Source: Motilibacter rhizosphaerae (GTDB lineage Bacteria > Actinomycetota > Actinomycetes > Motilibacterales > Motilibacteraceae). Taken from it: a stretch of 64,000 nucleotides of DNA. A model generated the notes under the pieces. It searched no databases. It was not told where the DNA came from and saw only the letters and a list, made by a program, of their open reading frames with translations. Location of the stretch: NCBI RefSeq assembly GCF_004216915.1, contig NZ_SGXD01000004.1:1-64000 (forward strand). Direction: 5' to 3'. Both the position numbers and the translations under genes were made by a program. Positions 13,317 through 27,462 of this stretch are shown piece after piece (the first letter of the stretch is position 1; every line of letters starts with the position of its first letter).

Positions 13317-14765
13317 GTGACGAGCACCGTCGAGCCGAGCACCGCCGAGACGAGCACCGTCGAGCCGAGCACCGCCGAGACGAGCACCGTCGAGCCGAGC
13401 ACCGCAGAGTCCTTCTCCGCCCTGCTCGGCGCCGAGCGCGTCCTCCCCGGTGGGCCGGAGGCGAGCGCGTACCTGCGCGACTTCTCGTGGTACTCGCCGA
13501 TCCTGGAGAACGCGCTCGCCGACACGACCGTCGACGCCGTCGTCCGCCCGCAGTCGGTCGAGGAGCTGACGGCCTGCGTCGCGGAGGCCGCGCGCCTGCG
13601 CGTCCCGCTCACGCTGCGCGGCGCCGGGACGGGGAACTACGGCCAGTCGCTGCCGCTGCGCAGCGGGGTCGTGGTCGACGTCCGCGGTGTCGCCGGCGTC
13701 CTCGACGTCACAGCGGGGCGCATCAGCGTGCTGCCCGGGACGGTGATGAAGGACGCCGAGGACGCCGCCCGCGCGACGGGCCAGGAGCTGGCGGTCATGC
13801 CCAGCACGTACCGGATCTCGACCGCGTCGGGCTTCATCAGCGGCGGGTCGGGCGGGATCGGGGCGGCCGCCAACGGCGACCTGTGGGGCGACAACGTGCT
13901 GGCCGTCGAGATGCTCAGCGTCGAGGAGGAGCCGCGGCTGGTGCGGCTCGAGGGCGACGACGTCCGGCCGGTGCTCCACACCTACGGCACGATCGGCGTG
14001 CTCACCCGCATCGAGCTGCGGCTCGTCCCCGCGCACGACTACACGCCCGTCGTCGTGGCGTTCCGGGACTTCGCGACGCTCACCGGCTTCGCGCACGACC
14101 TCGTCTCCGGCGACATCCACGTCCGCCTCTGCTCGGTGCACGAGGCCGTCGGCGCCGCCATGCTGGCGCCGATCTCGTCGCTGTACGAGCCCGGCGAGGA
14201 CGTCGCCCTCGTGCTGGTCGACAGCGGTCAGCTCGACGCGCTGCGCGCGGCCGTCGAGGCCGCCGGAGGGCGGACCGTCGAGTGGACCGTCAAGCCGCAC
14301 ATCAGCCAGTTCCCCTTCAGCCACACCATCCTCTGGGCACGCAAGGCGGTGCCGGACTCCTCCTGGCTGCAGTGCGAGTACGCCAGCGACCGCACGGAGT
14401 TCCTCGCCCAGGTCGCGGAAGTCCGCGAGCGGTACGCCGGGATCTTCCTGCAGCACGTGGAGTTCGCGCGCACCGGGGAGCGGACGCGCCCGCTCGGCAT
14501 CACCCCGCTCGTCGGGCTCGCCGACCACGAGGACGCGCTGGAGGAGCTGCTCGGCTTCTGCCGCGCGCTCGGGATGACCGTGCTCAACCCGCACAGCTAC
14601 GTGGTCGAGGAGGGCGGCTACGTCGGGGACACCTCGCAGGTCGTCGCGCTCAAGGAGACGTGCGACCCGTACGGCCTGCTGAACCCGGGCAAGCTCGGGG
14701 ACAGCTTCTTCACCTCCCGCGGGCTGACCCCGCCGAGCGCCCGGGCCGCGACCGCCCGCCGCTGA
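13317..14765 (+). CDS. FAD-binding oxidase (GlcD/VAO family), island copy 1
   Basis: 482 residues from a GTG with AGGAG upstream. A PCMH-type FAD domain is seen: LRGAGTGNYGQ about 100-110 binds the pyrophosphate, and SGFISGGSGGIGAAANGD continues the nucleotide site. The C-terminal substrate domain ends with YGLLNPGKL, the usual family ending. It is paralogous to the protein at 26119-27462, which has the same GTGNYGQ and GLLNPGKL motifs, so the island has two such oxidases. Predicted reaction: flavin-dependent oxidation of a hydroxyl or amine. The first 31 residues are three copies of a 10-residue Thr/Ser/Val/Glu/Pro repeat with no family counterpart. Confidence 0.88.
   Translation: MTSTVEPSTAETSTVEPSTAETSTVEPSTAESFSALLGAERVLPGGPEASAYLRDFSWYSPILENALADTTVDAVVRPQSVEELTACVAEAARLRVPLTLRGAGTGNYGQSLPLRSGVVVDVRGVAGVLDVTAGRISVLPGTVMKDAEDAARATGQELAVMPSTYRISTASGFISGGSGGIGAAANGDLWGDNVLAVEMLSVEEEPRLVRLEGDDVRPVLHTYGTIGVLTRIELRLVPAHDYTPVVVAFRDFATLTGFAHDLVSGDIHVRLCSVHEAVGAAMLAPISSLYEPGEDVALVLVDSGQLDALRAAVEAAGGRTVEWTVKPHISQFPFSHTILWARKAVPDSSWLQCEYASDRTEFLAQVAEVRERYAGIFLQHVEFARTGERTRPLGITPLVGLADHEDALEELLGFCRALGMTVLNPHSYVVEEGGYVGDTSQVVALKETCDPYGLLNPGKLGDSFFTSRGLTPPSARAATARR
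13320..13409 (+). repeat. Three 30-bp tandem repeats encoding TSTVEPSTAE
   Basis: Copies at 13320-13349, 13350-13379 and 13380-13409; the third differs by one base. They are in frame and lengthen the oxidase N-terminus by 10 residues per copy, so copy number could vary without breaking the gene. Confidence 0.95.
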
Positions 14766-14775
14766 CGCGACCTGC

Positions 14776-15552
14776 TCAGGGCGGCGTCGGGTCGAAGCGC
14801 GCGACCTCCGCGAACGCCTCGCCGAGGTACGCGACCATCGCCGCCGCGCGCTGGGCCCCGCGCTCGGCGGTGGCCTCGCGGGCATCTCCGACGACCCCGC
14901 TGGGGCCGAAGTCGGCGGAGGACCAGCCGAACGACACCGACCCGCCGAAGCGCACGTGGCGGTAGGAGTCCAGGTGCTCGGGCACCCACCGGTCGGCCTT
15001 CGTCATGTCGACGAGCTCGGGGCGCAGGTGCAGCATCAGCGAGGTCTCCTCCAGCCCGCCGTGCACGCCCATGCCGAGCTCGCCGGTGGGGCTCGCGCCG
15101 CCCTGGTCGGCGGGCACCGCCGGGTGCAGGGTGAACGTGCGGAGCCCGGTGGCCAGGCGGATGTCGCGGGCGGCGACCTGGAGGAGCGCGGAGTTCCCCC
15201 CGTGCCCGTTGAGGAACGCGAGCCGCCGCGACGGGGTCATCGCCGCGCAGCGGCCGATGTCGGTGAGGACCGCGGTCAACGTCGCCGCGGAGAGCCAGAA
15301 CGTCCCGCCGGACCAGGCGTGCTCGTTGGACTTCGTGTAGGCCAGCGGGGGCAGCAGCCACAGGTCGAGCTCCTCGCCGTGCTCGGCGACGACCCGCTCG
15401 GCCAGCGCCTGCGCCGTGAGCAGGTCGGTGGCGACCGGCAGGTGCGGGCCGTGCTGCTCGATCGCGCCGGTGGGGAGGACGAGGACGCTGTCGGGGCCGA
15501 GCCGGTCGGCGATGTCGGGTGCGGTGAGCTCGGTCAGCAGGCGGAGGGGCAC
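14776..15552 (-). CDS. Creatininase-family amidohydrolase
   Basis: 258 residues from the GTG at 15552. The metal-binding residues of the creatininase fold are all visible: Glu and His in TGAIEQHGPHLPVATD, Asp at its end, His in NGHGGN and Glu in HGGLEETSLML. Family members open cyclic or linear amides (creatinine, dehydro-inosose, formamidopyrimidines), so an amide of the island substrate is the likely target. The gene lies convergent to FAD oxidase copy 1 (10-base gap) and divergent from the amidohydrolase at 15646. A TAGCGT hexamer 8 bases before the GTG and the absence of a Shine-Dalgarno suggest a leaderless message; an in-frame ATG exists upstream but would cross that hexamer. Confidence 0.85.
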   Translation of the reverse strand: MPLRLLTELTAPDIADRLGPDSVLVLPTGAIEQHGPHLPVATDLLTAQALAERVVAEHGEELDLWLLPPLAYTKSNEHAWSGGTFWLSAATLTAVLTDIGRCAAMTPSRRLAFLNGHGGNSALLQVAARDIRLATGLRTFTLHPAVPADQGGASPTGELGMGVHGGLEETSLMLHLRPELVDMTKADRWVPEHLDSYRHVRFGGSVSFGWSSADFGPSGVVGDAREATAERGAQRAAAMVAYLGEAFAEVARFDPTPP

Positions 15553-15560
15553 GTTGCGCG

Positions 15561-15566
15561 ACGCTA
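15561..15566 (-). promoter_or_regulatory. -10 hexamer TAGCGT for the creatininase-like gene
   Basis: Reads TAGCGT on the minus strand, 8 bases before the GTG at 15552. The same hexamer precedes the starts at 41321 and 51338. Confidence 0.5.
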
Positions 15567-15597
15567 GGAGCCCGCCGTTGCGCGGTGATGTCAGCGG

Positions 15598-15624
15598 TGT
15601 TCCGGACGACATCGCGCCGGAACA
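15598..15624. promoter_or_regulatory. Inverted repeat TGTTCCGG-N11-CCGGAACA
   Basis: A perfect 8+8 inverted repeat in the 93-base gap between the divergent creatininase-like and amidohydrolase genes. It is a good candidate operator controlling both directions; no regulator gene lies inside the island. Confidence 0.6.
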
Positions 15625-15645
15625 ACCGGCTGCCAGAGTGCGGGC

Positions 15646-16971
15646 GTGCTGACCGTACGAGGCGCGTTGCGCGTCCTGACCTGCACCGGTGACTCTTCGC
15701 ATGACGGTCCTGCAGGGGAGGACGCGCCGGCGGACCTCGTCTGCGGCGACGACGGCAGGTTCGTCGACGCAGCAGCCGCTCCTGGCGGCGAGGTGCTGGA
15801 CGCGACCGGCTGCGTGGTGACGCCGGGGCTCGTCAACGCCCACCACCACCTGCTGCAGACGGCGTTCCGCACGCTGCCCGGGACCCGCGGGGTCCCCATG
15901 TCGCAGTGGCTGCCGACGATGGCCGCGGGGTACGCGGCGGTCGGTGTTGACCCCGAGCTCGTCCACGCGGCCGCCTCCGCAGGGCTCGCCGAGGCGCTGC
16001 TCTGCGGCGTGACCACCGTCGCCGACCACCACCTCACGTGGCCCGCGCACCTCCCCGACGACGGGCTGGGGATCGCGCGCGCGACGGTGGAGGCGGCGGC
16101 GCGTACGGGCGCGCGGCTCGTGTTCGTCCGCGGCACCGCGCGCGACGACCCGGAGGACGCGGCCTCCTCTGCTGCGGCGGTGGCGGGGCTCGTCCCGCAC
16201 GGCGGCACGAGCGACGACGGCATGCTCCAGGTCGCGGTCGGGCCGGCGGGCGTGCACAGCGACAGCGAGCAGACCTTCCGGCTGCTCGGCGAGGTCGCGC
16301 GGGCGCACGGGCTGCGCCGGCGCACGCAGGCCAACGAGCAGGTCGACGTAGCGGTCGCTGCGGCGAGGTACGGGCGCCGCCCGCTCGAGCTGCTCGAGGA
16401 GTGGGGCTGGCTCGCCCCCGACGTCACCCTCGCCCACCTCTGCGGCGTGACGCCGGACGAGATCGACCGCGTCGCCTCGGCCGGCGCGAGCGCGACGCAC
16501 GCGCCGGGCTGCGACCTGCCGATGGGCTGGGGCGTCGCGCCGATGGCCGCGCTCGCGGACGCGGGCGTCCCGGTCGGACTCGGCACCAGCGGCGGGGGCT
16601 CGAACGACGCCGGCCACCTGCTCGCCGACGCCCGGCTCGCGATGCAGGTGGCCCCGCTCGTGGGCCGCCCGGTCGCGGCGCGCGAGGTGCTGGCGTGGGC
16701 GACGCGCGGCTCCGCGGACGGGCTCGGCCGCCCGGACCTCGGGCGTCTCGAGCCAGGGGGGCGGGCCGACCTCGTCTGCTGGGACGTCACGGGTGTCGCC
16801 GACGTGGGTGTCGCGGACCCCGTCGCCGGGCTGCTCTGGGCTTCCCCCGGCCGCCGCCCCCGCCACGTCGTCGTCGGCGGCCGGGTCGTCGTGCGCGACG
16901 GGGTGCTGCAGACCCGCGACGAGCAGGAGGTGGTGCGTACCCTCACGGACCTGCTCGCGGAACGCCGCTGA
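15646..16971 (+). CDS. 8-oxoguanine-deaminase-like amidohydrolase with altered metal site
   Basis: 441 residues. The overall pattern follows 8-oxoguanine deaminase and the TRZ/ATZ family: VNAHHHLLQTAFRTLPG near 60-75, a RYGRRPLELLEEWGWL block and the retained His of LAHLCGV. Two usual metal or catalytic positions are changed: the HTHLAE strand reads RTQANE, so the metal His is Gln, and the GVDGSASND strand reads GTSGGGSND, so the metal Asp is Ser. Either the enzyme binds its metal differently or it has lost deaminase activity. It is first of a run with the Rieske oxygenase and the amidohydrolase at 18140. A CAGAGT six bases before the GTG may serve as -10. Confidence 0.8.
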   Translation: MLTVRGALRVLTCTGDSSHDGPAGEDAPADLVCGDDGRFVDAAAAPGGEVLDATGCVVTPGLVNAHHHLLQTAFRTLPGTRGVPMSQWLPTMAAGYAAVGVDPELVHAAASAGLAEALLCGVTTVADHHLTWPAHLPDDGLGIARATVEAAARTGARLVFVRGTARDDPEDAASSAAAVAGLVPHGGTSDDGMLQVAVGPAGVHSDSEQTFRLLGEVARAHGLRRRTQANEQVDVAVAAARYGRRPLELLEEWGWLAPDVTLAHLCGVTPDEIDRVASAGASATHAPGCDLPMGWGVAPMAALADAGVPVGLGTSGGGSNDAGHLLADARLAMQVAPLVGRPVAAREVLAWATRGSADGLGRPDLGRLEPGGRADLVCWDVTGVADVGVADPVAGLLWASPGRRPRHVVVGGRVVVRDGVLQTRDEQEVVRTLTDLLAERR

Positions 16972-17063: not shown

Positions 17064-18143
17064 ATGACCCTGACCGATCCCGAGCCGGACGTGGCACCAG
17101 CCGTCGCCAGGGAAACGACGCACCACGGCCCGGACCACCTCGTGCTCTCCGAGCACCCCGTCTTCCGCCGCTTCTGGTACGCCGTCTGCTTCACCGACGA
17201 CGTCGCTGACGGGCCGGTGGAGCGCACGGTCCTCGGGCAGGAGCTGGTGCTCTGGCGTCCCGAGCCCGGCTCCGCGGTCAGCGCGGCGTGGAACCGCTGT
17301 GCGCACCGCGACGCGCCGCTCTCCATGGGCTGGGTGAAGGACTGCCACCTCGTCTGCCCGTACCACGGCTGGGAGTGGGATGCCGAGGGCCGCACGCAGC
17401 GGATCCCGCAGTTCCCGACCGCGCCGCACCCGACGAAGAGCGGGCTCACCATGGTCCGGGCGCAGGAGCGCTACGGCATGGTGTGGGTCTGCCTCGCGGA
17501 CGACGCGGAGGGCGGGCCCGTCGCCGACATCCCCCCGGTGCCGCAGTACGCCGCGCCCGGCTGGCGCGTGGTGCCCGAGCGGCAGTGGGACTTCGCCTGC
17601 ACGGCCATGCACCTGGTCGAGAACAACGTCGACCCCGGGCACGTCGCGTTCGTCCACCGGGCGACCTTCGGCAACCCGGACAACGCCGAGCTGACCGAGG
17701 CCGACGTCGAGCGCACGGCGTACGGCTTCCTCACCCGCAACGAGGTCCCGGTCGAGTCGCGGCCGGGCGAGGTCGGCGCCACGGTCCGCTCCACGGTGGC
17801 CCAGGTGCACCTGCCGTTCTTCATGCACCTGCACATCACCTACCCCGACGGCCTGCAGCACGTCATGCTCAAGGCCATCACCCCGGTCGACGACGAGCAC
17901 TGCGTCATCCTGCAGACCGTGCTGCGGACGGACTCCGAGGCGGAGCGACCGGCCGCCGACATCCTGGCCTTCGACGACGTCGTCGAGCAGGAGGACGCCA
18001 CGCTGCTGGACCGGCTGCCCGCCGGGTTCCCGCTGGCGCCACGGCTCAACGCGCACGCGAAGGCCGACCGGGCGAGCCTGCTGCTGCGCCGCCTCTACGC
18101 CGAGCTCGTCACCGGGCGCTGGACGCCGGGGGTCGGCGCGTGA
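17064..18143 (+). CDS. Rieske non-haem iron oxygenase, terminal subunit
   Basis: 359 residues; the ATG has a strong GGAGGAG Shine-Dalgarno. The Rieske [2Fe-2S] ligands are CAHRDAPLSMGW and CPYHGW (about residues 76-101). The mononuclear iron site is ENNVDPGHVAFVH (about 190-202), where the Asp also bridges electron transfer between subunits. Its size and single-component look fit the phthalate/vanillate demethylase-type group, which uses a PDR-type reductase; one is encoded at 25053-26027. Predicted role: O- or N-dealkylation or hydroxylation of the island substrate. It overlaps the next gene by 4 bases (GTGA). Confidence 0.9.
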   Translation: MTLTDPEPDVAPAVARETTHHGPDHLVLSEHPVFRRFWYAVCFTDDVADGPVERTVLGQELVLWRPEPGSAVSAAWNRCAHRDAPLSMGWVKDCHLVCPYHGWEWDAEGRTQRIPQFPTAPHPTKSGLTMVRAQERYGMVWVCLADDAEGGPVADIPPVPQYAAPGWRVVPERQWDFACTAMHLVENNVDPGHVAFVHRATFGNPDNAELTEADVERTAYGFLTRNEVPVESRPGEVGATVRSTVAQVHLPFFMHLHITYPDGLQHVMLKAITPVDDEHCVILQTVLRTDSEAERPAADILAFDDVVEQEDATLLDRLPAGFPLAPRLNAHAKADRASLLLRRLYAELVTGRWTPGVGA

Positions 18144-19501
18144 CGCGGCTGCTGGTCCACGGTGCCGTCCTGCTGACGGTCGACCCATCTCGCCCTGACC
18201 CCTTCGTCGGCTGGTTCACCGTCGGGGACGACGGCCGGATCAGTGCCCTCGAGCCCGGAGAGCCCCCGGAGGGCCTCGTCGCCGAGCAGGTGCTCGACGC
18301 GAGCGGCACGATCATCGGCCCGGGCTTCGTCTCGTCGCACAGCCACCTGTTCACCTCGGGCTGCCGCGGGCTGGGCATGGACCAGTCGTTGTACGGCTGG
18401 ATCGAGGCGATGACGGCACCCCTCGCGGGCGCGGTCGACGAGGACATCTACTGGATGACCCGCCACGGTGCGCAGGACTTCCTGCGCAACGGCATCACCA
18501 CGGCCTTCGACTTCACCAGCGCGGGGCTGAGCTTCGAGAAGGAGTCCGACGGCGTCGCGCGGTACGCCGCGAGCCTCCCGGACGCCGTCTTCCAGCACGC
18601 GCAGCTGCGCGGCAAGGTCGACGCGGGGCTGCGCAGCGTCCACAGCGTCATGCTGGGACAGGGCGCGGTCGACCACGCCGCAGCCCTGGCCCACCTCGAT
18701 GACGTCGTCAGCCTCGCCACCGACGTGGACCGCTCGCTCCTCCTCGGAGTGGCCCTCAGCGGCACCGTGCAGTGGGCGGAGTCCCCCGACGCCGCGACGC
18801 TGGAGGTCGCGGCGATGCGGCGGCACGGACTGCTGAACCAGCCGCACTTCCTCGAGACGCCGCACGAGATCTCGCTGCAGCAGGCGAAGTTCGCGTGGTA
18901 CCGCGAGGCGGGTGCGCTCGGCCCGGACCTGGTCTTCGGCCACTTCATCCAGACCACCGACGAGATCCTCGTCGAGGCCGCGGCGGCGGGGTGCGGCATG
19001 AGCTGGCAGCCGATGAGCAACGGGCGGCTCGCGTCGGGGGTCGCCAGCATCCCGCGCATCCGCGAGCTGGGGATGCGCGTCGGCATCGGGCTCGACGACC
19101 AGTCCTGCACCGACGTCAGCGACCCGTTCGCCAACATGCGCACCGCGCTGTCCCTCGTCCGCGCGACCTACCACGACCCCGCTGCGCTGCCGGTGCGCGA
19201 CGTGCTCGAGCTGCACACGCGCGGGTCCGCCGAGGTCCTCGGCATCGACCGCGAGGTGGGCAGCCTGCGCGTGGGCCGCTTCGCCGACTTCCTCGTCGTG
19301 GACCCGCGCCGCCCGGACACCGGGCCCGTGTGGGACGCGTACGGCACGTACGTCCTGGCGTGCTCGCTGCGCAACCTGCGCCAGGTGTGGTCGGGCGGAC
19401 GGCTCGTCGCCGAGGGCGTGGCCCTCTGCGACCCGCAGGCCGACGAGGTCGAGAGCCAGCTGCACGAGCGCCTCGGCCGGCTGCAGGGGGTCCGTGCCTG
19501 A
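18140..19501 (+). CDS. Amidohydrolase (TRZ/ATZ-type deaminase/hydrolase)
   Basis: 453 residues from a GTG overlapping the Rieske stop. Unlike its neighbour at 15646 the metal site is complete: HSHLF near 60, the His of QPHFLE near 240, the GHFIQTTDE strand and the Asp in GIGLDDQS near 320. Predicted reaction: hydrolytic deamination or ring opening of a nitrogen heterocycle in the cytoplasm. It ends the rightward run 15646-19501 and is followed by a strong terminator. Exact substrate not predictable. Confidence 0.87.
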   Translation: MTRLLVHGAVLLTVDPSRPDPFVGWFTVGDDGRISALEPGEPPEGLVAEQVLDASGTIIGPGFVSSHSHLFTSGCRGLGMDQSLYGWIEAMTAPLAGAVDEDIYWMTRHGAQDFLRNGITTAFDFTSAGLSFEKESDGVARYAASLPDAVFQHAQLRGKVDAGLRSVHSVMLGQGAVDHAAALAHLDDVVSLATDVDRSLLLGVALSGTVQWAESPDAATLEVAAMRRHGLLNQPHFLETPHEISLQQAKFAWYREAGALGPDLVFGHFIQTTDEILVEAAAAGCGMSWQPMSNGRLASGVASIPRIRELGMRVGIGLDDQSCTDVSDPFANMRTALSLVRATYHDPAALPVRDVLELHTRGSAEVLGIDREVGSLRVGRFADFLVVDPRRPDTGPVWDAYGTYVLACSLRNLRQVWSGGRLVAEGVALCDPQADEVESQLHERLGRLQGVRA

Positions 19502-19570: not shown

Positions 19571-20842
19571 TCAGCCCGCGGAGATCGAGGAGTCGATGAA
19601 CTCGTTGGTCTCGACGTCCGACGGCTTCAGCCCTGCCTTCGGCGCCGTCTTCTGCGCGGTGAAGACCGGCGTCACGAGGTCGATGAGCTTCTGCACGCGG
19701 GCGTCGTCGAAGTTCCCGTGGGTCGAGTCCGGGCCGTTGCCCACGAGCCCGAGCTGCTTCTGCGTCTGGACCGAGTAGTCAGCGACGCCCTTGGAGTAGA
19801 CCCAGCCGTTGTTGTACTTGCCCACGAGCTTGAGGACGAGGGCGTTGGTGCGCGACGGGTCCTTCAGGTAGTCGACGTCCGCCTGCTGCATGATCGGGAC
19901 GAGCACCTTGAGGCAACCCGACATCGACGAGACCTCGCTGCTGCGCACCGCGATCGCCGACGCGTAGGGCTGGTAGCCCACGTCGTAGGTCAGCTGGTAC
20001 TTGACCGGCTTGCCCCACGCGGAGACCTCGTGCTGGTAGATGTACGGCTCGGCGGAGGCGAAGCCCTGCTGCGCCTTCTTGCCACCGGCGGCGACGAACG
20101 CCGCGGGGGTGCCGTCGTACGACCCGTCCACGAGGTTGGACTTCAGCACGCCCTTGCCCTCGAGCGCGGACACCCAGGCCGAGCCGGAGAACACCCGCGT
20201 CGTCACGCCCTTCGCGGTCAGGTCCGGGATCCCCTTGACGTCGGGGTAGGTCTTCGGGTCCCACATCACCATCTGCGGGGAGATCTCCAGCGGCGCGAGG
20301 ACCGCGACGGTCGGGTGCTTGGCGGAGTTCTGGATCGCCTCGTCGGTGCCGACGTAGCCGAGGGTGATCGACTTGTCGGAGTACATCTGGGCGGTCACCT
20401 GCTGGAAGCCGATCGCCGGGCCGCCGGCGCGGATCTCCACCTTCACGCCGGTGTCGGCGCCGCTCGCGTCGACCAGCGGACCGGACACCGACTTCTTCCC
20501 CGAGTTGATCGAGTAGTCGCTGCCCAGCAGCTGGTAGGCGCCACCGTGCTCGGACTCGGGGTTCCAGTCGGTCTGGATGACGACGGTGGACGGGCAACCC
20601 GCCGCCTTGAGGTCCTTCGCCGCGGTGCTCGGACCGCTGGCGGCGGCACTGCCGGCCGCGGAGCCGTCGGCCGCCGGGGCTGCACTGCCGGCCGCACCGC
20701 TCGCGCCGCCGCTGGACGCGGCAGCCGGGGTGCTCACCGAGCTGGCGGTCGAGCTCGTGCTGCTCCCGCCGCAGCCGGCGAGGGTGAGCCCGACCGCTGC
20801 AAGAGCGGCGACCGGGCCGATGGTGCTGCGAGTCTTGCGCAC
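19571..20842 (-). CDS. ABC importer substrate-binding lipoprotein (NMT1/THI5-like)
   Basis: 423 residues from a GTG with GAAGGAG 5 bases upstream. A lipoprotein signal ends in LTLAGCGG, so the mature protein is lipid-anchored at Cys. A long Ser/Ala/Gly linker follows to about residue 75. The body resembles NMT1/nitrate-taurine-type binding proteins (QTDWNPESEHGGAYQLL, TDEAIQ). With the permease and ATPase upstream it forms an importer, probably for the substrate of the catabolic island. It is separated from the permease by 260 bases holding a structured leader, so it may be expressed or tuned separately from the other two. Confidence 0.87.
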   Translation of the reverse strand: MRKTRSTIGPVAALAAVGLTLAGCGGSSTSSTASSVSTPAAASSGGASGAAGSAAPAADGSAAGSAAASGPSTAAKDLKAAGCPSTVVIQTDWNPESEHGGAYQLLGSDYSINSGKKSVSGPLVDASGADTGVKVEIRAGGPAIGFQQVTAQMYSDKSITLGYVGTDEAIQNSAKHPTVAVLAPLEISPQMVMWDPKTYPDVKGIPDLTAKGVTTRVFSGSAWVSALEGKGVLKSNLVDGSYDGTPAAFVAAGGKKAQQGFASAEPYIYQHEVSAWGKPVKYQLTYDVGYQPYASAIAVRSSEVSSMSGCLKVLVPIMQQADVDYLKDPSRTNALVLKLVGKYNNGWVYSKGVADYSVQTQKQLGLVGNGPDSTHGNFDDARVQKLIDLVTPVFTAQKTAPKAGLKPSDVETNEFIDSSISAG

Positions 20843-20918
20843 GCTTTCTCCTTCGGGAGTCCAACGACGCCCCACGGACCGGGGCGACGCTCCCGGGCTC
20901 GCGACGGTGCAAGGCCCA

Positions 20919-20975
20919 GAAGGTGGTACGGGGCAACGAGTGCCGTGCGGCACTCGAGCCCGCGTGTCCACCTTC
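20919..20975 (-). promoter_or_regulatory. Structured leader RNA of the binding-protein gene (possible riboswitch)
   Basis: On the minus strand the untranslated region folds into an outer stem GAAGGTGG/CCACCTTC enclosing an inner perfect 9-bp stem CGAGTGCCG/CGGCACTCG with a 2-base loop. It lies about 77-133 bases before the GTG at 20842. I do not recognise a known riboswitch core. It could be an attenuator, a processing/stability element or a ligand-binding leader. Confidence 0.45.
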
Positions 20976-21102
20976 GGCCGGTCCTGTTTCCCCCGGGTCT
21001 CCCCGCGGTGAACGCCGTCGACCATCGGTCACGACTCGGACACAGGGGCCGAAAACCCCTCGCCCTCAAGACCTCGGACGTCCCGTGGTCGCGCCGGAGC
21101 GG

Positions 21103-21972
21103 TCAGACCACGTCGCGGGACTGGTCGTACCAGCGCCCCACGGCCAGCTTCGCGATCCACCCGAAGAGTGCGAAGACCGCGATGCCCAGCCCGGAAGCGA
21201 CGAGGATCGTCGCGAACAGCTGCGGGCCCTGCAGGCGGGAGCGGAAGTTGTCGAGCAGGATCCCCAGGCCCGGGTCCCCCTGCCGGAAGAAGAGGTCGCC
21301 GACGATGGCACCGACGACGGAGAGGCCGGCGGAGATGCGGAAGCCCGCGAAGATCGCCGGGAGGGCAGCGGGGAACTCCAGCTTGAGCAGGCGGGTCAGC
21401 CGGCTGGCGCCGTGCAGCGTGAACAGCTCGTGCATGCCGCGGTCGACCGACTGAAGGCCGAACAGCGTGTTGGAGACGATCGGGAACAGCGCGATCATCA
21501 CGCAGACGATGACGCGCGGCCAGAACCCGAAGCCGAACCAGAAGCCCAGCAGGGGGACGAGGGCGAGGATCGGGATGCACTGGAGCGCCACCGCGTACGG
21601 GAACAGCGTGCGCTCGACCCACCGCGCCTGGCTCATCGCGACCGCCCAGACCATGCCGACGACGATCGCGAGGGCGAGCCCGACGAAGGTCACCACGATG
21701 GTGCGCCAGAGCGACTGGCCGATCATGCTCATGGAACCGCTGTCCAGCAGCGCGTCCGTGACGATGACGTGCGGTGCCGGGAGCAGGAAGCGCTGGTCCT
21801 CGGCGAGGACGAGGTAGGTGACGGCGTACCACGCCCCGAGCAGCACCCCCAGGAACGCCAGCGGCAGCACGAGGTTCTGCGGCGAGCGGCGCCTCCGTGT
21901 GCCTGCGGGAGCGGCGACCACCACCGCAGGGTCGGCCAGCGGCGCGGTGGGCGCGGGGATCGTGGCGGTCAT
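21103..21972 (-). CDS. ABC importer permease (NMT1/nitrate-taurine type)
   Basis: 289 residues from the ATG at 21972, chosen for the GGAGGG Shine-Dalgarno directly upstream. A GTG at 22008 overlapping the ATPase stop (GTGA) is an equally coupled alternative that adds 12 residues. About six membrane segments are seen, with the EAA-type loop HGASRLTRLLKLEFPAALP that docks to the ATPase. It is the membrane component for the binding protein at 19571 and the ATPase at 22005. Confidence 0.88.
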   Translation of the reverse strand: MTATIPAPTAPLADPAVVVAAPAGTRRRRSPQNLVLPLAFLGVLLGAWYAVTYLVLAEDQRFLLPAPHVIVTDALLDSGSMSMIGQSLWRTIVVTFVGLALAIVVGMVWAVAMSQARWVERTLFPYAVALQCIPILALVPLLGFWFGFGFWPRVIVCVMIALFPIVSNTLFGLQSVDRGMHELFTLHGASRLTRLLKLEFPAALPAIFAGFRISAGLSVVGAIVGDLFFRQGDPGLGILLDNFRSRLQGPQLFATILVASGLGIAVFALFGWIAKLAVGRWYDQSRDVV

Positions 21973-22004
21973 GGTGCCCTCCTGTGCGACGTGCTCGACG
22001 GTGC

Positions 22005-22838
22005 TCACGAGTGCCCCTCACGCAGGGCGTGGGAGACCTTGCCGGCGAGCGCGCCGAACTCGGGGGTGAAGCGGATGTCCGGGGTGCGGTCGCGCCCGAA
22101 CGGCACGTCGAAGGAGTCGACGATCCGCCCGGGGCGCCCGGACATGACGAGCACGCGGGTGGAGAGGTAGACCGCCTCGCTGACCGAGTGGGTGATGAAC
22201 AGCGCCCCGAAGCCCTTGGCCTCGAACAGCCGCAGCAGCTCGTCGTTCAGCCGCTCGCGGGTGATCTCGTCCAGGGCACCGAACGGCTCGTCGAAGAGGA
22301 AGAGGTCCGGGTCCAGCGTGAGCGAGCGGGCGAGCGAGGCGCGCATCCGCATGCCGCCGGACAGCGCCCGCGGCAGCTTGCGCTCGTGGCCCGCGAGGCC
22401 GACGAGCTCGATGGCGTCGCGGGTCGCGGTCTCGATCTCCGCCTTCGGCATGCCGTGCAGCTCGGCGAGCAGCTGGACGTTCTTCGTGACGCTGCGCCAG
22501 GGCAGCAGCGTGGCGTCCTGGAAGACGTAGCCGATGCGCTCCGCCGCCACCTCGCTGACGCCCGAGCTGGCAGGCGAGAGGCCGGAGGCGATGCGCAGCA
22601 GGGTGCTCTTGCCGCACCCCGACGGGCCGACGACCGTGACGAAGTCGCCGCGGCGCACCTCCAGGTCGACGCCCTCCAGGGCGACGGTCCCGTCGGGGAA
22701 GGTCTTGGCGACGTCCTGGAAGCGCAGCACCTGCTTGCCCACCGCGGTCCCGGGGGCAGGGGAGGCGAGGACGGTCATCGGCAGCTCCGGTCTGGTCGCG
22801 ACCGCGGGTGCCGCGGCCGTAGGGGCACTTGCCACCAT
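22005..22838 (-). CDS. ABC importer ATPase (NMT1/nitrate-taurine type)
   Basis: 277 residues from the ATG at 22838, which has AGGAGGG upstream and avoids overlap with the deaminase-like gene. Walker A GPSGCGKST, Q-loop VFQDATLLPW, signature LSGGMRMR and Walker B LFLFDEPFGALDE are all intact, as in SsuB/TauB-type proteins. It drives import of the island substrate together with the adjacent permease. Confidence 0.9.
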   Translation of the reverse strand: MVASAPTAAAPAVATRPELPMTVLASPAPGTAVGKQVLRFQDVAKTFPDGTVALEGVDLEVRRGDFVTVVGPSGCGKSTLLRIASGLSPASSGVSEVAAERIGYVFQDATLLPWRSVTKNVQLLAELHGMPKAEIETATRDAIELVGLAGHERKLPRALSGGMRMRASLARSLTLDPDLFLFDEPFGALDEITRERLNDELLRLFEAKGFGALFITHSVSEAVYLSTRVLVMSGRPGRIVDSFDVPFGRDRTPDIRFTPEFGALAGKVSHALREGHS

Positions 22839-22852
22839 CGGTCCCTCCTGTT

Positions 22853-24097
22853 TCAGGGGCGTGAGCGAGCGGTGAACGCGGGCGCTCCCCACCTGACGAC
22901 GCGTCGGGTGCTGGCGGCGACGCGCTCCCCCACGACCGCGACGCGCGCGCTCCCGGCTCCCGCCACCGCCGCGTCGAGGCTCTCGGCCTCGACCGCGAGG
23001 AACCGCGCCACCGACCCCTCGCGCACCGCCGGCACCGGCAGCCCCATGACCGCACGGGCGCCAGCGCTCACGGCCAGCCAGGCCTCGCGGGTCGAGCAGT
23101 GCCCCGCAGTCACGAGCAGGGACGCGGCCTCGCAGGCGTCTGCGCGTCCCATGGGGTTGAACGGGTCGCGCAGGTTGTCGCCCCCCGCGCCCACGACCAC
23201 CCCCGCGTCCAGGAGAGCGCGGACGGCGGTCAGCCCGCGCGGCGCCCCGACCGGCACCTCACGGCCCTGGAGGTAGAGGTTGGTCTGCGGCAGCGTCACG
23301 ACGCCCACCCCCGCCCGTGCGACTGCGGCGGCCGTCGCCCGCGCCACGTCGAGGCCGTGGATGCCGAGGCTCACGCAGTGGCTCGCGGTGGCGCCGTGGG
23401 CGAACCCCGTGGCGAGCACGCGCTCCGCCAGCTCGCGCAGCCCCTGGGCCGTCGGGTCCAGCGTCTCGTCGGTGTGCAGGTCGAGCGGGAAACCGGCGCG
23501 CGCGGCCGCGGCGAAGGAGAGCTCGAGCCCGGCGCTGCGGTCGCCCCAGATGTGCGGCACTCCCCCGACGACGTCCACGCCGAGCTCGACCGCCTCGGCC
23601 AGCGCTCGGGTCGTGGCCGCCGCCTCCTCGGGCGTCCAGGGCGCGGACACGAGGGCCACCACCTGGAGGTCGACCACGCCGGCGAGGGTGTCGCGGACCT
23701 CCAGCAGGGCGCGGACGTGCCGCAGCCCCGTGTGCGCGCCGAGGTCGGCGTGCGTGCGGATCGCCGTCGTGCCGTTGGCGAGGTACTCGTACGCCGCCCT
23801 CGTCGCGCGCTCGACGAGGTCGTCGTGCGTGAAGCCCGGGGCGATGGCCCTGATGGCCTCGATCGCCCCCGCGAGGTCGCCGGTGCGGTTCGGTGCGCGG
23901 TGGCTCGTGAGCGCCTTGTCCAGGTGGGCGTGGGGCTCGGCGGGTGCCGGGAGAAGCAGGTGCCCGCCCAGGTCGAGCACCTCGTCGCCCGGCGCCTCGG
24001 GCAGCAGCGGCGCGACGGCCTCGACCACGTCCCCGGTGATGCGGACGTCGACGGTCGCGCCGTCGATGTCGGTCGCGGACCTCAGCAGCAGGCTCAT
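22853..24097 (-). CDS. Cytosine-deaminase-like amidohydrolase
   Basis: 414 residues. The metal and catalytic motifs follow CodA-type deaminases: EPHAHLDKAL near 56-65, DLHTDE near 209-214, ASHC near 238-241 and GGDNLRDPFNP near 309-319. This is the third amidohydrolase of the island and has a complete site. Predicted reaction: deamination or ring hydrolysis of a pyrimidine- or triazine-like ring. Its ATG overlaps the stop of the MTHFR-like gene (ATGA), so it is in the leftward operon 26027 to 21103. Confidence 0.87.
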   Translation of the reverse strand: MSLLLRSATDIDGATVDVRITGDVVEAVAPLLPEAPGDEVLDLGGHLLLPAPAEPHAHLDKALTSHRAPNRTGDLAGAIEAIRAIAPGFTHDDLVERATRAAYEYLANGTTAIRTHADLGAHTGLRHVRALLEVRDTLAGVVDLQVVALVSAPWTPEEAAATTRALAEAVELGVDVVGGVPHIWGDRSAGLELSFAAAARAGFPLDLHTDETLDPTAQGLRELAERVLATGFAHGATASHCVSLGIHGLDVARATAAAVARAGVGVVTLPQTNLYLQGREVPVGAPRGLTAVRALLDAGVVVGAGGDNLRDPFNPMGRADACEAASLLVTAGHCSTREAWLAVSAGARAVMGLPVPAVREGSVARFLAVEAESLDAAVAGAGSARVAVVGERVAASTRRVVRWGAPAFTARSRP

Positions 24098-25056
24098 CGC
24101 AGCGCCCTCCCGATCTCGGCCAGCGCACCGGCCGTCTCCAGCTCACGACCCGGCGCCGGGACCGCGGTCAGGTCGACGCCGCGGACCCCCGGCACGTCGA
24201 GGTACGCCTCGGCGAGCCGCACCGCCTCCGCCACGCCGTACGCCGGCCGCACGGACCCGGGGAACCGCTGCAGCGCAGCGGCTGAGCCCGCGTCGAACGC
24301 GACGGCGAGGCAGGCGACGAACGGCACGTGCGCGCCGGCGTCGGTGGCGGCGGCCACGAACTCGCCGACGGCGGCCGGCCCGTCGCAGAGGTTGACGAAG
24401 CAGACTGCGGCACCGGCGCGTACCTTCTCCGCGAGGCGCTCCGCCCGCTGCTCGCGGGGAGGTGCGGCGGCCGACTCGGCCACCGAGACCAGCAGCCCCG
24501 TCTGCGCGGCGACGGCGGCGAGCCGGGTCGAGTCGAGGTCGAAGACCGGAGCAGCGTCCGGGCGGTCGCCGGTACGCGTGTGGTCGCCCGTCACGCAGTG
24601 CACGGCGGCGGCGCCCACGTCCGCGAGAGCGGCGAGCTCGCCCTCGAGCGCCACGCGGTTGCGGTCGCGGCAGGTGAGCCCCGCCCAGGCGGCGACGCCG
24701 CGCGACTGCACCACCGCCGCCCGGTGCGCGGGCGGCAGCTGGACGCGGGCGGTGGGCGCGTCCCCGAGCAGAACGGCGTCGACGGCGCCGGCGAGCGCGT
24801 CGGCGCTGCGCTCCAGCCCGCTGCGCGAGAGCGGCGGCGCGGGGAGGTCGGCGATGACGACGGGGCGCTGGCGCAGCAGGGCGAGCAGCGGGGGCTCGGA
24901 GGTGTGCGGCGTGGGAGGCCCGGACCAGGGGACGACCGCGCGACCGACGAAGGGGCAGGGGAAGGGGCCGATCTCGCACGTACCGTCACCGGCGACGCCG
25001 CCGCACGGACCGTGGACCATGCGCTTGGGGCACTCGGAGACCGTGGTGGCACTCAC
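24094..25056 (-). CDS. Methylenetetrahydrofolate-reductase-like protein with N-terminal Cys-rich motif
   Basis: 320 residues from a GTG overlapping the reductase stop (GTGA). Residues 8-28 contain CPKRMVHGPCGG and a following CE, the zinc-type motif of the MTHFR_C domain, here at the N-terminus. The rest follows the MetF TIM barrel (for example AVHCVTGDHTRTGDRPD). A one-carbon role would fit: formaldehyde released by Rieske-type demethylation could be captured on tetrahydrofolate. That link is inference. It is in the middle of the leftward catabolic operon. Confidence 0.75.
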   Translation of the reverse strand: MSATTVSECPKRMVHGPCGGVAGDGTCEIGPFPCPFVGRAVVPWSGPPTPHTSEPPLLALLRQRPVVIADLPAPPLSRSGLERSADALAGAVDAVLLGDAPTARVQLPPAHRAAVVQSRGVAAWAGLTCRDRNRVALEGELAALADVGAAAVHCVTGDHTRTGDRPDAAPVFDLDSTRLAAVAAQTGLLVSVAESAAAPPREQRAERLAEKVRAGAAVCFVNLCDGPAAVGEFVAAATDAGAHVPFVACLAVAFDAGSAAALQRFPGSVRPAYGVAEAVRLAEAYLDVPGVRGVDLTAVPAPGRELETAGALAEIGRALR

Positions 25057-26027
25057 AGGTCCAGCACCAGCCGCGGCCCGGCGGAGCGGGAGACGCAGAC
25101 CATCATCACGGCGCTGTCGGCCTGCTCGGCAAGGGTGAGCACGGAGTCGCGGTGCTCGACGTCGCCCTCCAGCACGGGGGTCTCGCACGTACCGCAGGTC
25201 CCGACGCGGCAGGAGGACAGCACGACGGCGCCGGCGGCGAGCGCGGCCTCGAGCACGGACTCACCGGGCTCGACCGTGACCGTCGCACCGGTCAGCGCCA
25301 GCTCCACCTCGAACGGTCCCGGCCAGACCGGCTCGCCGAACTCCTTGGCAGTGAAGCGCTCCACGTGCAGCGCCGTCGCGGGCCAGCCGGCCATCCGCTG
25401 CTCGACGGCGTCCACGAGCCGGGCAGGGCCGCACGCGTACACCTCGGTGCCGGGCTGCGGCTCGCCGAGCAGCGCGTCGAGGTCGAGCCGTCGGCCCTCG
25501 TCGGCGGGGTGCAGCCGCACCCGCTCCGGGTACGCGGTGGCGAGCTCCCCGGCGAACGCCATCGTGGCCCGCGAGCGCCCGGCGTAGTCGAGGGTCCACT
25601 CGGCGCCCGCCGCGTGGGCGCGGAGGACCATCGCGCGCAGCGGGGTGATGCCGATGCCGCCGGCGACGAAGCGGTACGCCGTCCCTGCCGCCGCGGTGAA
25701 GCCGAAGTGGTTGCGCGGCCCGCGGACGCGCAGCCGCTGGCCGACGCGGACATCGTCGTGCAGGGCGAGGGAGCCGCCACGTCCCGCGTCCTCGCGCAGG
25801 ACGGCGATGCGCCACCGCGAGCGGTCGTCCTCGTTGCCGCACAGTGAGTACTGCCGCTCGGTGCCCGGCGCGAGGACGACGTCGACGTGCGAGCCGGGCG
25901 TCCAGGCCGGCAGGTCGCGCCCGTTGTGGGCCACCAGGTCCAGCGCCACGACGCCCTGCGCGAGCTCGGTGCGCGCGTCGACCACGAGATCGCGCTCGAC
26001 GTCGGAGAAGAAGCTCATCACCGCCAT
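25053..26027 (-). CDS. PDR/VanB-type ferredoxin reductase (FMN, NAD(P)H, [2Fe-2S])
   Basis: 324 residues. Three domains in order: FMN-binding barrel with RQYSLCG (about 58-64), NAD(P)-binding domain with GGIGITP (about 122-128), and a C-terminal plant-type [2Fe-2S] ferredoxin with CRVGTCGTC and a distant fourth Cys in MMVC. This is the standard one-protein electron supply for phthalate/vanillate-type Rieske oxygenases, so it most likely serves the oxygenase at 17064, about 8 kb away. The ATG has GGAGG upstream. It is first gene of the leftward operon 26027-21103. Confidence 0.92.
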   Translation of the reverse strand: MAVMSFFSDVERDLVVDARTELAQGVVALDLVAHNGRDLPAWTPGSHVDVVLAPGTERQYSLCGNEDDRSRWRIAVLREDAGRGGSLALHDDVRVGQRLRVRGPRNHFGFTAAAGTAYRFVAGGIGITPLRAMVLRAHAAGAEWTLDYAGRSRATMAFAGELATAYPERVRLHPADEGRRLDLDALLGEPQPGTEVYACGPARLVDAVEQRMAGWPATALHVERFTAKEFGEPVWPGPFEVELALTGATVTVEPGESVLEAALAAGAVVLSSCRVGTCGTCETPVLEGDVEHRDSVLTLAEQADSAVMMVCVSRSAGPRLVLDL

Positions 26028-26118: not shown

Positions 26119-27462
26119 GTGACCCTCGACCTCACCTCCGCGCCCCCCACCGCGATCGCCGCGCTCGAGGCGGAGCTCGTGGAGCTGCTCGGCCCGCGGG
26201 GCGTGACCAGCGAGCTGCGCGCCCGGGAGCGGGCCTCCGTCGACGGGTCGCTGATGAGCCCGATCATCGTGGAGCAGCTGCCCCTCGGCCTCGCGGACCT
26301 CGTGGCCTTCCCGGCGACGGCGGAGCAGATCGGCGACGTCGTGGCCGCGGCCGTCCGGCACGGCGTGCCGGTCACCCCGCGCGGCAAGGGCACGGGCAAC
26401 TACGGCCAGGGGATCCCGCTGGCCGGCGGCCTCGTGCTCGACACCTCCCGCGCGCGTGCGGTCGTCGAGGTCGGCGACGGCTGGATCACGGCCGAGGCCG
26501 GGGCTCCGATGGTCGCGCTGGAGCGAGCCGCGGCCGAGCAGGGCCAGCAGCTCTGGATGTACCCCTCGACGGCGCAGTCGTGCCTGGGCGGCTTCCTCTC
26601 CGGGGGGTCGGGCGGGACGGGCACGATCGCGCACGGCAGCAACGACATGGGCTTCGTCGTCGCGCTCGACGTCGTGCACGGGGACGGCTCGCCCGAGCTG
26701 CACCACGTCGAGGGCGCGGAGGCGCAGCGCTACGTCCACAACTACGGCACCGCCGGCATCATCGCCCGCGCGACGGTGCGGCTCGAGCCGCTGCAGGACT
26801 GGCGGGGCGTGTTCGCGAGCTTCCCCGACCTGCCGAGCGCGCTGCGGGCGCTGCGGATCCTGGGCCGCCTCGATCCGCTGCCGCGCCTGGTCTCCGCCGA
26901 CGGGCCGGAGGTGATCGCGGCCCTGCCGCCCGATCCGGCGTTCCCCGCCGGGCGCGCCAGCCTGCGGATGATCGCGGACGTGGCGACGGTGGGCGCGGCG
27001 CGCGTGGTCATCGAGGGCGCCGGCGGCCAGGTCGAGGACGTCCGCGAGGGGCCGCAGGTCGTGCTCGCGATCAGCATGCTCAGCTACAACCATCCCGTCG
27101 AGTGGCTGCAGAAGTCCGCACCCGGCACGTACTTCCACGTCGAGGTCGCCGGCGAGGCGCTGGTCGACCGGCCCGCGGACGTGGCCGCCGTCTACGAGGG
27201 CGGGCTGCTCCACGTCGAGGCCGGGCACTCCGTGCCGATCGGCATGCTGGCCGGGGTCTACCAGAGCCCGGAGCAGGTACGCGCCGGCATCGCCGCGCTG
27301 AACGCCCTCGGCGTCGGCGTGCACGACCCGCACCAGTGGAACGTGGACTTCGAACTGCAGCGGACGGTCGAGACCGCGCGGAGGACCGACCCCGGTGGGC
27401 TGCTGAACCCCGGCAAGCTCAACCCGGAGTACGCCGGTCCCACCAAGGGGTCCATCCGGTGA
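26119..27462 (+). CDS. FAD-binding oxidase (GlcD/VAO family), island copy 2
   Basis: 447 residues. FAD domain with TPRGKGTGNYGQGIPLAGG (about 89-107) and FLSGGSGGTGTIAHGS; C-terminus GGLLNPGKL. It is a paralogue of the oxidase at 13317-14765 but lacks the N-terminal repeat. It is divergent from the reductase operon and overlaps the PNPOx-like gene by 4 bases (GTGA). Two such oxidases suggest two successive oxidations in the pathway or a heteromeric enzyme; sequence alone cannot decide. Confidence 0.88.
   Translation: MTLDLTSAPPTAIAALEAELVELLGPRGVTSELRARERASVDGSLMSPIIVEQLPLGLADLVAFPATAEQIGDVVAAAVRHGVPVTPRGKGTGNYGQGIPLAGGLVLDTSRARAVVEVGDGWITAEAGAPMVALERAAAEQGQQLWMYPSTAQSCLGGFLSGGSGGTGTIAHGSNDMGFVVALDVVHGDGSPELHHVEGAEAQRYVHNYGTAGIIARATVRLEPLQDWRGVFASFPDLPSALRALRILGRLDPLPRLVSADGPEVIAALPPDPAFPAGRASLRMIADVATVGAARVVIEGAGGQVEDVREGPQVVLAISMLSYNHPVEWLQKSAPGTYFHVEVAGEALVDRPADVAAVYEGGLLHVEAGHSVPIGMLAGVYQSPEQVRAGIAALNALGVGVHDPHQWNVDFELQRTVETARRTDPGGLLNPGKLNPEYAGPTKGSIR

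Follow-up and report, generated by a model that had tools for sequence, protein, structure and literature searches.

Among enzymes of solved structure, the one closest to the protein considered in this study is TrzN, the atrazine chlorohydrolase or triazine hydrolase of Paenarthrobacter aurescens TC1 (PDB 3ls9), which is 35.5% identical to it. In the part of PMC4356373 available to us, TrzN is described as an active zinc enzyme with one zinc in each active site; it has Thr325 in place of the metal-binding Asp of the family, and was called unique and the first member of a ninth metal-site subgroup. Its His-zinc distances are short, His274 forms a hydrogen bond with the zinc-bound water, and Glu241 donates a proton. 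The same source notes that the metal varies within the superfamily, with iron in AtzA and zinc in TrzN. In AtzA, AtzB, NdmH and other subtype III enzymes of the guanine-deaminase type, an Asp-His-Glu plus Gln machinery was reported; according to the available sections of PMC12828455 and PMC13054789, the Gln binds an oxygen of the substrate, and the His and Glu shuttle a proton.

The gene examined here lies at positions 15646..16971 of the forward strand of the window, the whole 64,000-nucleotide stretch of Motilibacter rhizosphaerae DNA that was analysed. It is an intact open reading frame of 441 aa with a GTG start and no internal stops, and its product belongs to the amidohydrolase superfamily, as indicated by the Amidohydro_1 model of Pfam (PF01979, 114.8 bits against a cut-off of 25) and by a predicted (beta/alpha)8 barrel. 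A first AlphaFold2 model, built with 20 orthologues, had a pLDDT of 82 and a pTM of 0.88, and a second, built with 50 sequences, reached a pLDDT of 92.8 and a pTM of 0.93; in the better model the block 311-320, which contains Ser315, has a mean pLDDT of 75, the lowest besides the N-terminal loop. The motifs to which an earlier note, made from the letters of this DNA, had pointed are all located in this frame: NAHHHL at residues 64-69, RTQANEQ at 226-232, LAHLCG at 262-267 and GTSGGGSND at 313-321. Its statements that the gene is otherwise intact, and that HTHLAE reads RTQANE and GVDGSASND reads GTSGGGSND with the loss of a metal-binding His and a metal-binding Asp, hold as well; its family name, 8-oxoguanine-deaminase-like, is not supported. 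The NCBIfam model of 8-oxoguanine deaminase (NF006055) is the best family match, but the score of 266.2 bits is half the cut-off of 532, which rules out simple membership in that family.

The best match in a sequence search of the PDB is TrzN (225.8 bits), followed by the 8-oxoguanine deaminase / isocytosine deaminase Vcz (7ww2, 190 bits). TrzN was ranked first by Foldseek with the first model and headed the structural alignment of that model (Z 46.7, 2.3 A over 420); for the second model, whose top matches were amidohydrolases only, TrzN was again first (Z 52.7; 1.7 A over 425 residues), in a tie with 3hpa (52.1). Trees were computed from chosen subsets of 129 aligned rows, with 58 and then 54 rows, the long rows L003, L004, L020 and L108 being removed before the latter; in the first quick tree, two long rows attracted each other and the position of TrzN was unsettled. 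With the motif columns left out, our protein and its orthologues form one side of a branch with support 100/100, and a joint clade with TrzN is neither supported nor rejected (AU p 0.422, log-likelihood difference 1.43).

The active site was compared among 43 clade members and 63 canonical relatives in the 129-row alignment, which includes relatives down to ~26% identity; rows spanning fewer than 300 query residues (including L074 and L075) and the query duplicates L001 and L082 are excluded from these counts. All codons given below are on the forward strand. The outer histidines of the beta1 HxH metal ligands (His66-x-His68, 15841..15849) never change (43/43), and the middle residue varies between His and Ala (Ala in 2/43). 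Gln71 (15856..15858), the catalytic acid/base Glu231 (16336..16338) and His264 of beta6 (16435..16437) are likewise retained in 43/43; from its place in the alignment, Gln71 appears to be the equivalent of the substrate-oxygen-binding Gln of the guanine-deaminase-type enzymes. The beta5 metal-binding His, present in 63/63 canonical relatives, is replaced by Gln228 (16327..16329; Gln in 43/43, with the codon CAG in 42 and CAA in one), and the beta8 metal-binding Asp, also present in 63/63, by Ser315 (16588..16590; Ser in 43/43, with AGC in 36, AGT in 3, TCC in 2 and TCG in 2). Two further changes go beyond the earlier note: the first His of HTHLAE (63/63 canonical) is Arg226 (16321..16323; Arg in 43/43), and Asp290 (16513..16515), invariant in the clade, takes the place of the Asn in the "SSN" motif after beta7. 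In addition, His204 after beta4 (16255..16257) is invariant and clade-specific, its column holding Phe in 60/63 canonical relatives, and may be regarded as a candidate extra ligand or substrate contact. Thus, of the features of subtype III (deaminase-type mononuclear), the beta1 HxH, the beta6 His and the Glu after beta5 are present, and the beta5 metal His and beta8 metal Asp are absent.

This arrangement resembles that of TrzN in part. Residues 236, 238, 241, 274, 300 and 325 of TrzN align with Arg226, Gln228, Glu231, His264, Asp290 and Ser315, respectively, and the two proteins have in common the MGWG motif, the HxH, the equivalents of Glu241 and His274, a hydroxyl residue at the beta8 Asp position and the change from Asn to Asp after beta7 (Asp300 in TrzN). 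In contrast, TrzN retains His238 and His236 where our protein has Gln228 and Arg226, has Glu in place of Gln71, and its hydroxyl residue is Thr rather than Ser. His204 aligns with Pro214 of TrzN; PDB entries 5hme and 5hmf are TrzN variants altered at 214/215. 8-oxoguanine deaminase and Vcz share with our protein the fold, the HxH, the equivalents of Gln71, Glu231 and His264 and the layout of the motifs, as seen in the canonical rows, whereas the canonical relatives differ from it in having the beta5 His and beta8 Asp. AtzA, AtzB, NdmH and the guanine-deaminase-type enzymes, as covered by the available sections of PMC12828455 and PMC13054789, belong to the same superfamily and share the His, Glu and Gln of their machinery with it, but its Asp and the beta5 His are both missing here. 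Among the sequences examined, the change of the beta5 His to Gln together with Arg226 was found in this clade only.

When public genomes were searched with the protein as the query, 44 loci were obtained, of which 42 are orthologues and two (L076 and L078) are distant relatives. The orthologues are 57-82% identical to the query over the best segment, with one broken copy (L075) at 54%, and they belong, nearly all within Actinomycetota, to Actinomycetes (39 loci, including Geodermatophilaceae, Pseudonocardia, many Microbacteriaceae, Dietzia and Quadrisphaera), Acidimicrobiia (one locus) and MAGs without an assigned phylum (two). At 11 scored positions, in a count that covers all 42 scan loci matching above 50% identity, the residues are identical in 40 of the 42; since this is so, the altered site is confirmed, at the level of sequence, as a fixed feature of the clade, attributable neither to chance nor to an assembly error. 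Broken or split copies occur in three loci (L071, L074 and L075); L071 and L075, both broken or frameshifted, still have Ser315, His264 and Asp290, and L071 also Gln228.

In the 129-row alignment, the nine-column pattern HHQRQEHDS was found in 43 rows, comprising the query, 39 scan loci and three further loci (L083-L085 are among the further loci of the alignment and may repeat species of the 44-locus scan). The other patterns are HHQHHEHND in 63 rows, HHTQHEHND in 17, which is the type of the second amidohydrolase of the locus described below, and HHEHHEHDT in the two rows of TrzN; the remaining four rows fit none of these, one of them being a gapped row of the clade, and L071 is classed there as "other". 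Neither the 17 rows nor these four were counted as canonical. The beta5 His and beta8 Asp are both present in every row of this alignment outside the clade and TrzN, and rows with a single replacement are absent from it save the two TrzN rows, with Thr for Asp.

The claim of the earlier note that the gene looks selected rather than decayed is borne out by the invariance of the site in the clade and by the pattern of substitution. The dN/dS ratio is 0.14-0.28 in nine close pairs (NG86), the altered codons vary only synonymously, and the serine at 315 is kept across the AGY (39) and TCN (4) codon families. Since as many as 117 of the 441 columns show no variation among clade members, a single invariant position means little, and it is the whole set of kept residues that matters.

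The clade is uncommon, its profile matching 4/393 genomes of the class sample at E <= 1e-90, the query's own genome included. The other genome of this genus (G001) gave no match at E <= 1e-40, so the locus is patchy even within the genus. The query's own genome also has a canonical relative (locus L002, G000:C1:1011013-1012323; 38% identical, with HTHLAED and GCDG), and our protein is therefore not a replacement of the ordinary one. In the phylum sample, the clade profile matched 80/396 genomes at E <= 1e-55, of which 30 loci were fetched and 29 read besides that of the query; in the class sample, TrzN as a query matched 146/393 genomes at E <= 1e-50, and 30/30 fetched loci were canonical. No TrzN orthologue was seen among the class-sample matches listed, the best being 38-39% identical. 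Intermediates between the canonical, TrzN and present sites were sought in the 129-row alignment and among the loci read from the class and phylum samples, and none was found there.

The gene stands among candidate catabolic genes, whose occurrence near the orthologues was counted by tblastn; the counts are lower bounds where the flanking sequence ends, and include weak matches such as an ATPase at 36% in L047. Its commonest companion, present in 32/42 orthologous loci, is a creatininase-family hydrolase (14776..15552, minus strand, PF02633 219 bits, start codon uncertain), and the convergent creatininase and amidohydrolase pair (14776-16971) recurs across loci. Next to it lies an FAD-linked oxidase with a Pfam match to FAD_binding_4, similar to glycolate oxidase (13317..14765, plus strand). 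Downstream on the same strand as our gene are a Rieske-type oxygenase with the Rieske Cys/His motif (17064..18143; 5/42 loci) and the second amidohydrolase (18140..19501; 15/42), which has a canonical metal site with HSH, PHFLET, GHF and GLDD. An ABC importer follows on the minus strand (19571..22778; components in 26-28 of 42 loci), consisting of a substrate-binding protein (19571-20842; 28/42), a permease (21103-22008) and an ATPase (22005-22778); the substrate-binding protein has a sub-threshold match to DUF1806 and none that exceeds the cut-off of a family in Pfam or NCBIfam. Also on this strand are a cytosine-deaminase/AtzC-like amidohydrolase (22853..24097; 27/42), also with a canonical site, a methylenetetrahydrofolate-reductase-like protein with the DUF5981 Cys motif (24094..25056; 5/42) and a ferredoxin-type reductase (25053..26027; 16/42), the likely partner of the Rieske oxygenase. 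A second FAD-linked oxidase (26119..27462, plus strand; 22/42) completes the set.

The composition of the locus varies among its carriers. Some loci of Klenkia add an AtzH-like/amidase fusion, a RutB/BiuH-like isochorismatase, a formamidase-like protein and another amidase, and some loci of Microbacteriaceae add xanthine-dehydrogenase-type genes and XdhC. In the divergent MAG loci L067, L068 and L069, creatininase is the sole reference gene recognised in the flanks, and these loci have a luciferase-like gene nearby in common. A fixed pairing of our gene with the second amidohydrolase was considered and rejected, the latter occurring in 15 of the 42 loci. TrzN, in contrast, was found in this analysis on plasmids without these catabolic neighbours; a near copy of it on plasmid pAD51 of Arthrobacter sp. 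D5-1 (99% over aligned columns) lies near a gene for an ABC substrate-binding protein and the IS21-like istB.

From this gene content we infer an importer-linked catabolic pathway for an N-heterocycle, with import, oxidation, removal of substituents, ring opening and hydrolysis of the fragments. Creatininase and our protein may act on successive intermediates. The methylenetetrahydrofolate-reductase-like gene directly adjoins the gene for the Rieske-type reductase, and this pairing may reflect the release of one-carbon units in the pathway. In the lumichrome (riboflavin) cluster of Nocardioides simplex, as described in the available part of PMC12746152, xanthine-oxidase-like and Rieske oxidases together with several amide hydrolases likewise dismantle an N-heterocycle; the likeness is only an analogy in the logic of the locus. 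A search of open-licence papers retrieved none on the present gene cluster.

Taken together, and judging from the residues that it keeps, the protein probably functions as an enzyme, although its metal site is unusual. A more specific proposal, that it is a catalytically active hydrolase from the subtype III/TrzN branch whose mononuclear metal site has been re-made, we hold with even confidence. Two replacements are fixed across the clade, and His66, His68, Gln71, Glu231 and His264 are untouched. A divalent metal, probably zinc, would be held by His66, His68 and the side-chain oxygen of Gln228; Gln serves as a zinc ligand in other folds, as in phosphomannose isomerase and human glyoxalase I. 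Ser315 would not ligate the metal but position the water bound to it through a hydrogen bond, as is proposed by analogy with Thr325 of TrzN, and Asp290, newly acidic as in TrzN, would help to activate the water and possibly stand in for the lost Asp as acid/base. His264 and Glu231 would shuttle a proton to a ring nitrogen and to the leaving group, and Gln71 would bind an oxygen of the substrate. In the reaction, a substituent on a nitrogen heterocycle, such as an amine or some other leaving group, would be replaced by hydrolysis; this would be one step of a pathway that also employs a ring opener of the creatininase type, a cytosine-deaminase-like enzyme and flavin, Rieske or molybdenum oxidoreductases. 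The substrate is possibly anionic, because of the patch formed by Arg224-226.

Part of this proposal has a working precedent, as TrzN is active with Thr325 and has thus dispensed with the beta8 Asp. The earlier note had allowed for another metal arrangement, which is supported as possible, and had named homologues of proven activity with the same Gln and Ser as evidence that would tell against its reading. On the Ser side TrzN comes close, working with Thr for Asp, whereas no proven enzyme with a beta5 Gln was found, and a search of open-licence papers returned nothing on a beta5 Gln in amidohydrolases.

The other suggestion of the earlier note, a pseudoenzyme partner, fares less well. The protein could serve as a subunit or sensor without catalytic activity, binding a compound of the pathway and regulating or scaffolding another enzyme; the two metal-site positions were lost together with no intermediates seen, canonical amidohydrolases are co-located, and the lost beta8 Asp also has a catalytic role. 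A pseudoenzyme, however, is expected to have lost catalytic residues and not just ligands, and Gln71, Glu231 and His264 are present in 43/43 members together with the HxH; this makes the pseudoenzyme less likely. Nor is there an amidohydrolase partner in all loci, the second amidohydrolase and the cytosine-deaminase-like protein being found in 15 and 27 of the 42, and the flanks of the divergent loci L067-L069 showed creatininase alone of the reference genes. We therefore consider this explanation unlikely.

Somewhat less probable again is catalysis without a metal: the zinc would be lost, Arg226 (with Arg224/225) would supply the positive charge formerly given by it, and Ser315, His264, Glu231 and Asp290 would activate water or a serine nucleophile. 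Arg226, which precedes Gln228 by two residues in the same strand, is expected to point into the barrel, where, judging from its position, it would disfavour a cation and would fit a site without metal or a substrate that is anionic. A metal His has been lost along with the metal Asp, the Arg is invariant (43/43) two residues before the lost His, Ser315 lies within GTSGG, and Asp290, Glu231 and His264 are invariant. On the other hand, both outer histidines of the HxH are kept in 43/43 members while the middle residue drifts to Ala in two, a pattern to be expected of residues that continue to bind something, and TrzN, with Thr at the position of Ser315, contains zinc in every active site, as stated in the available part of PMC4356373. 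The narrower form of the idea, a hydrolysing clade whose zinc site was dismantled and whose invariant Arg226 fills the electrostatic role of zinc, is a shade more doubtful still.

A different metal (Fe, Mn or Co), or replacement of the lost ligands by His204 or Asp290, appears improbable. His204 is both invariant and clade-specific, Asp290 is invariant, and the Fe of AtzA as opposed to the Zn of TrzN gives an example of a change of metal in the superfamily (PMC4356373, in the part available); in the model, however, His204 would lie several residues past the beta4 strand. Finally, a decaying gene or a sequencing error, to which two catalytic positions off the canonical state and the broken or split copies in 3/42 loci might point, is hardly conceivable and is ruled out by the conservation of the clade, with the same residues in 40/42 loci, frames intact in nearly all of them and dN/dS far below 1.

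The clade combines the kind of metal-Asp loss known from TrzN with the loss of the metal His, in proteins that are natural and under selection. Natural proteins, instead of mutants, can thus serve to test how far the metal site of amidohydrolases tolerates replacement with catalysis surviving. Automatic annotation as 8-oxoguanine deaminase would mislead throughout the clade. The conserved locus, for its part, points to a pathway for the catabolism of an N-heterocycle in soil actinobacteria that was matched to no described one.
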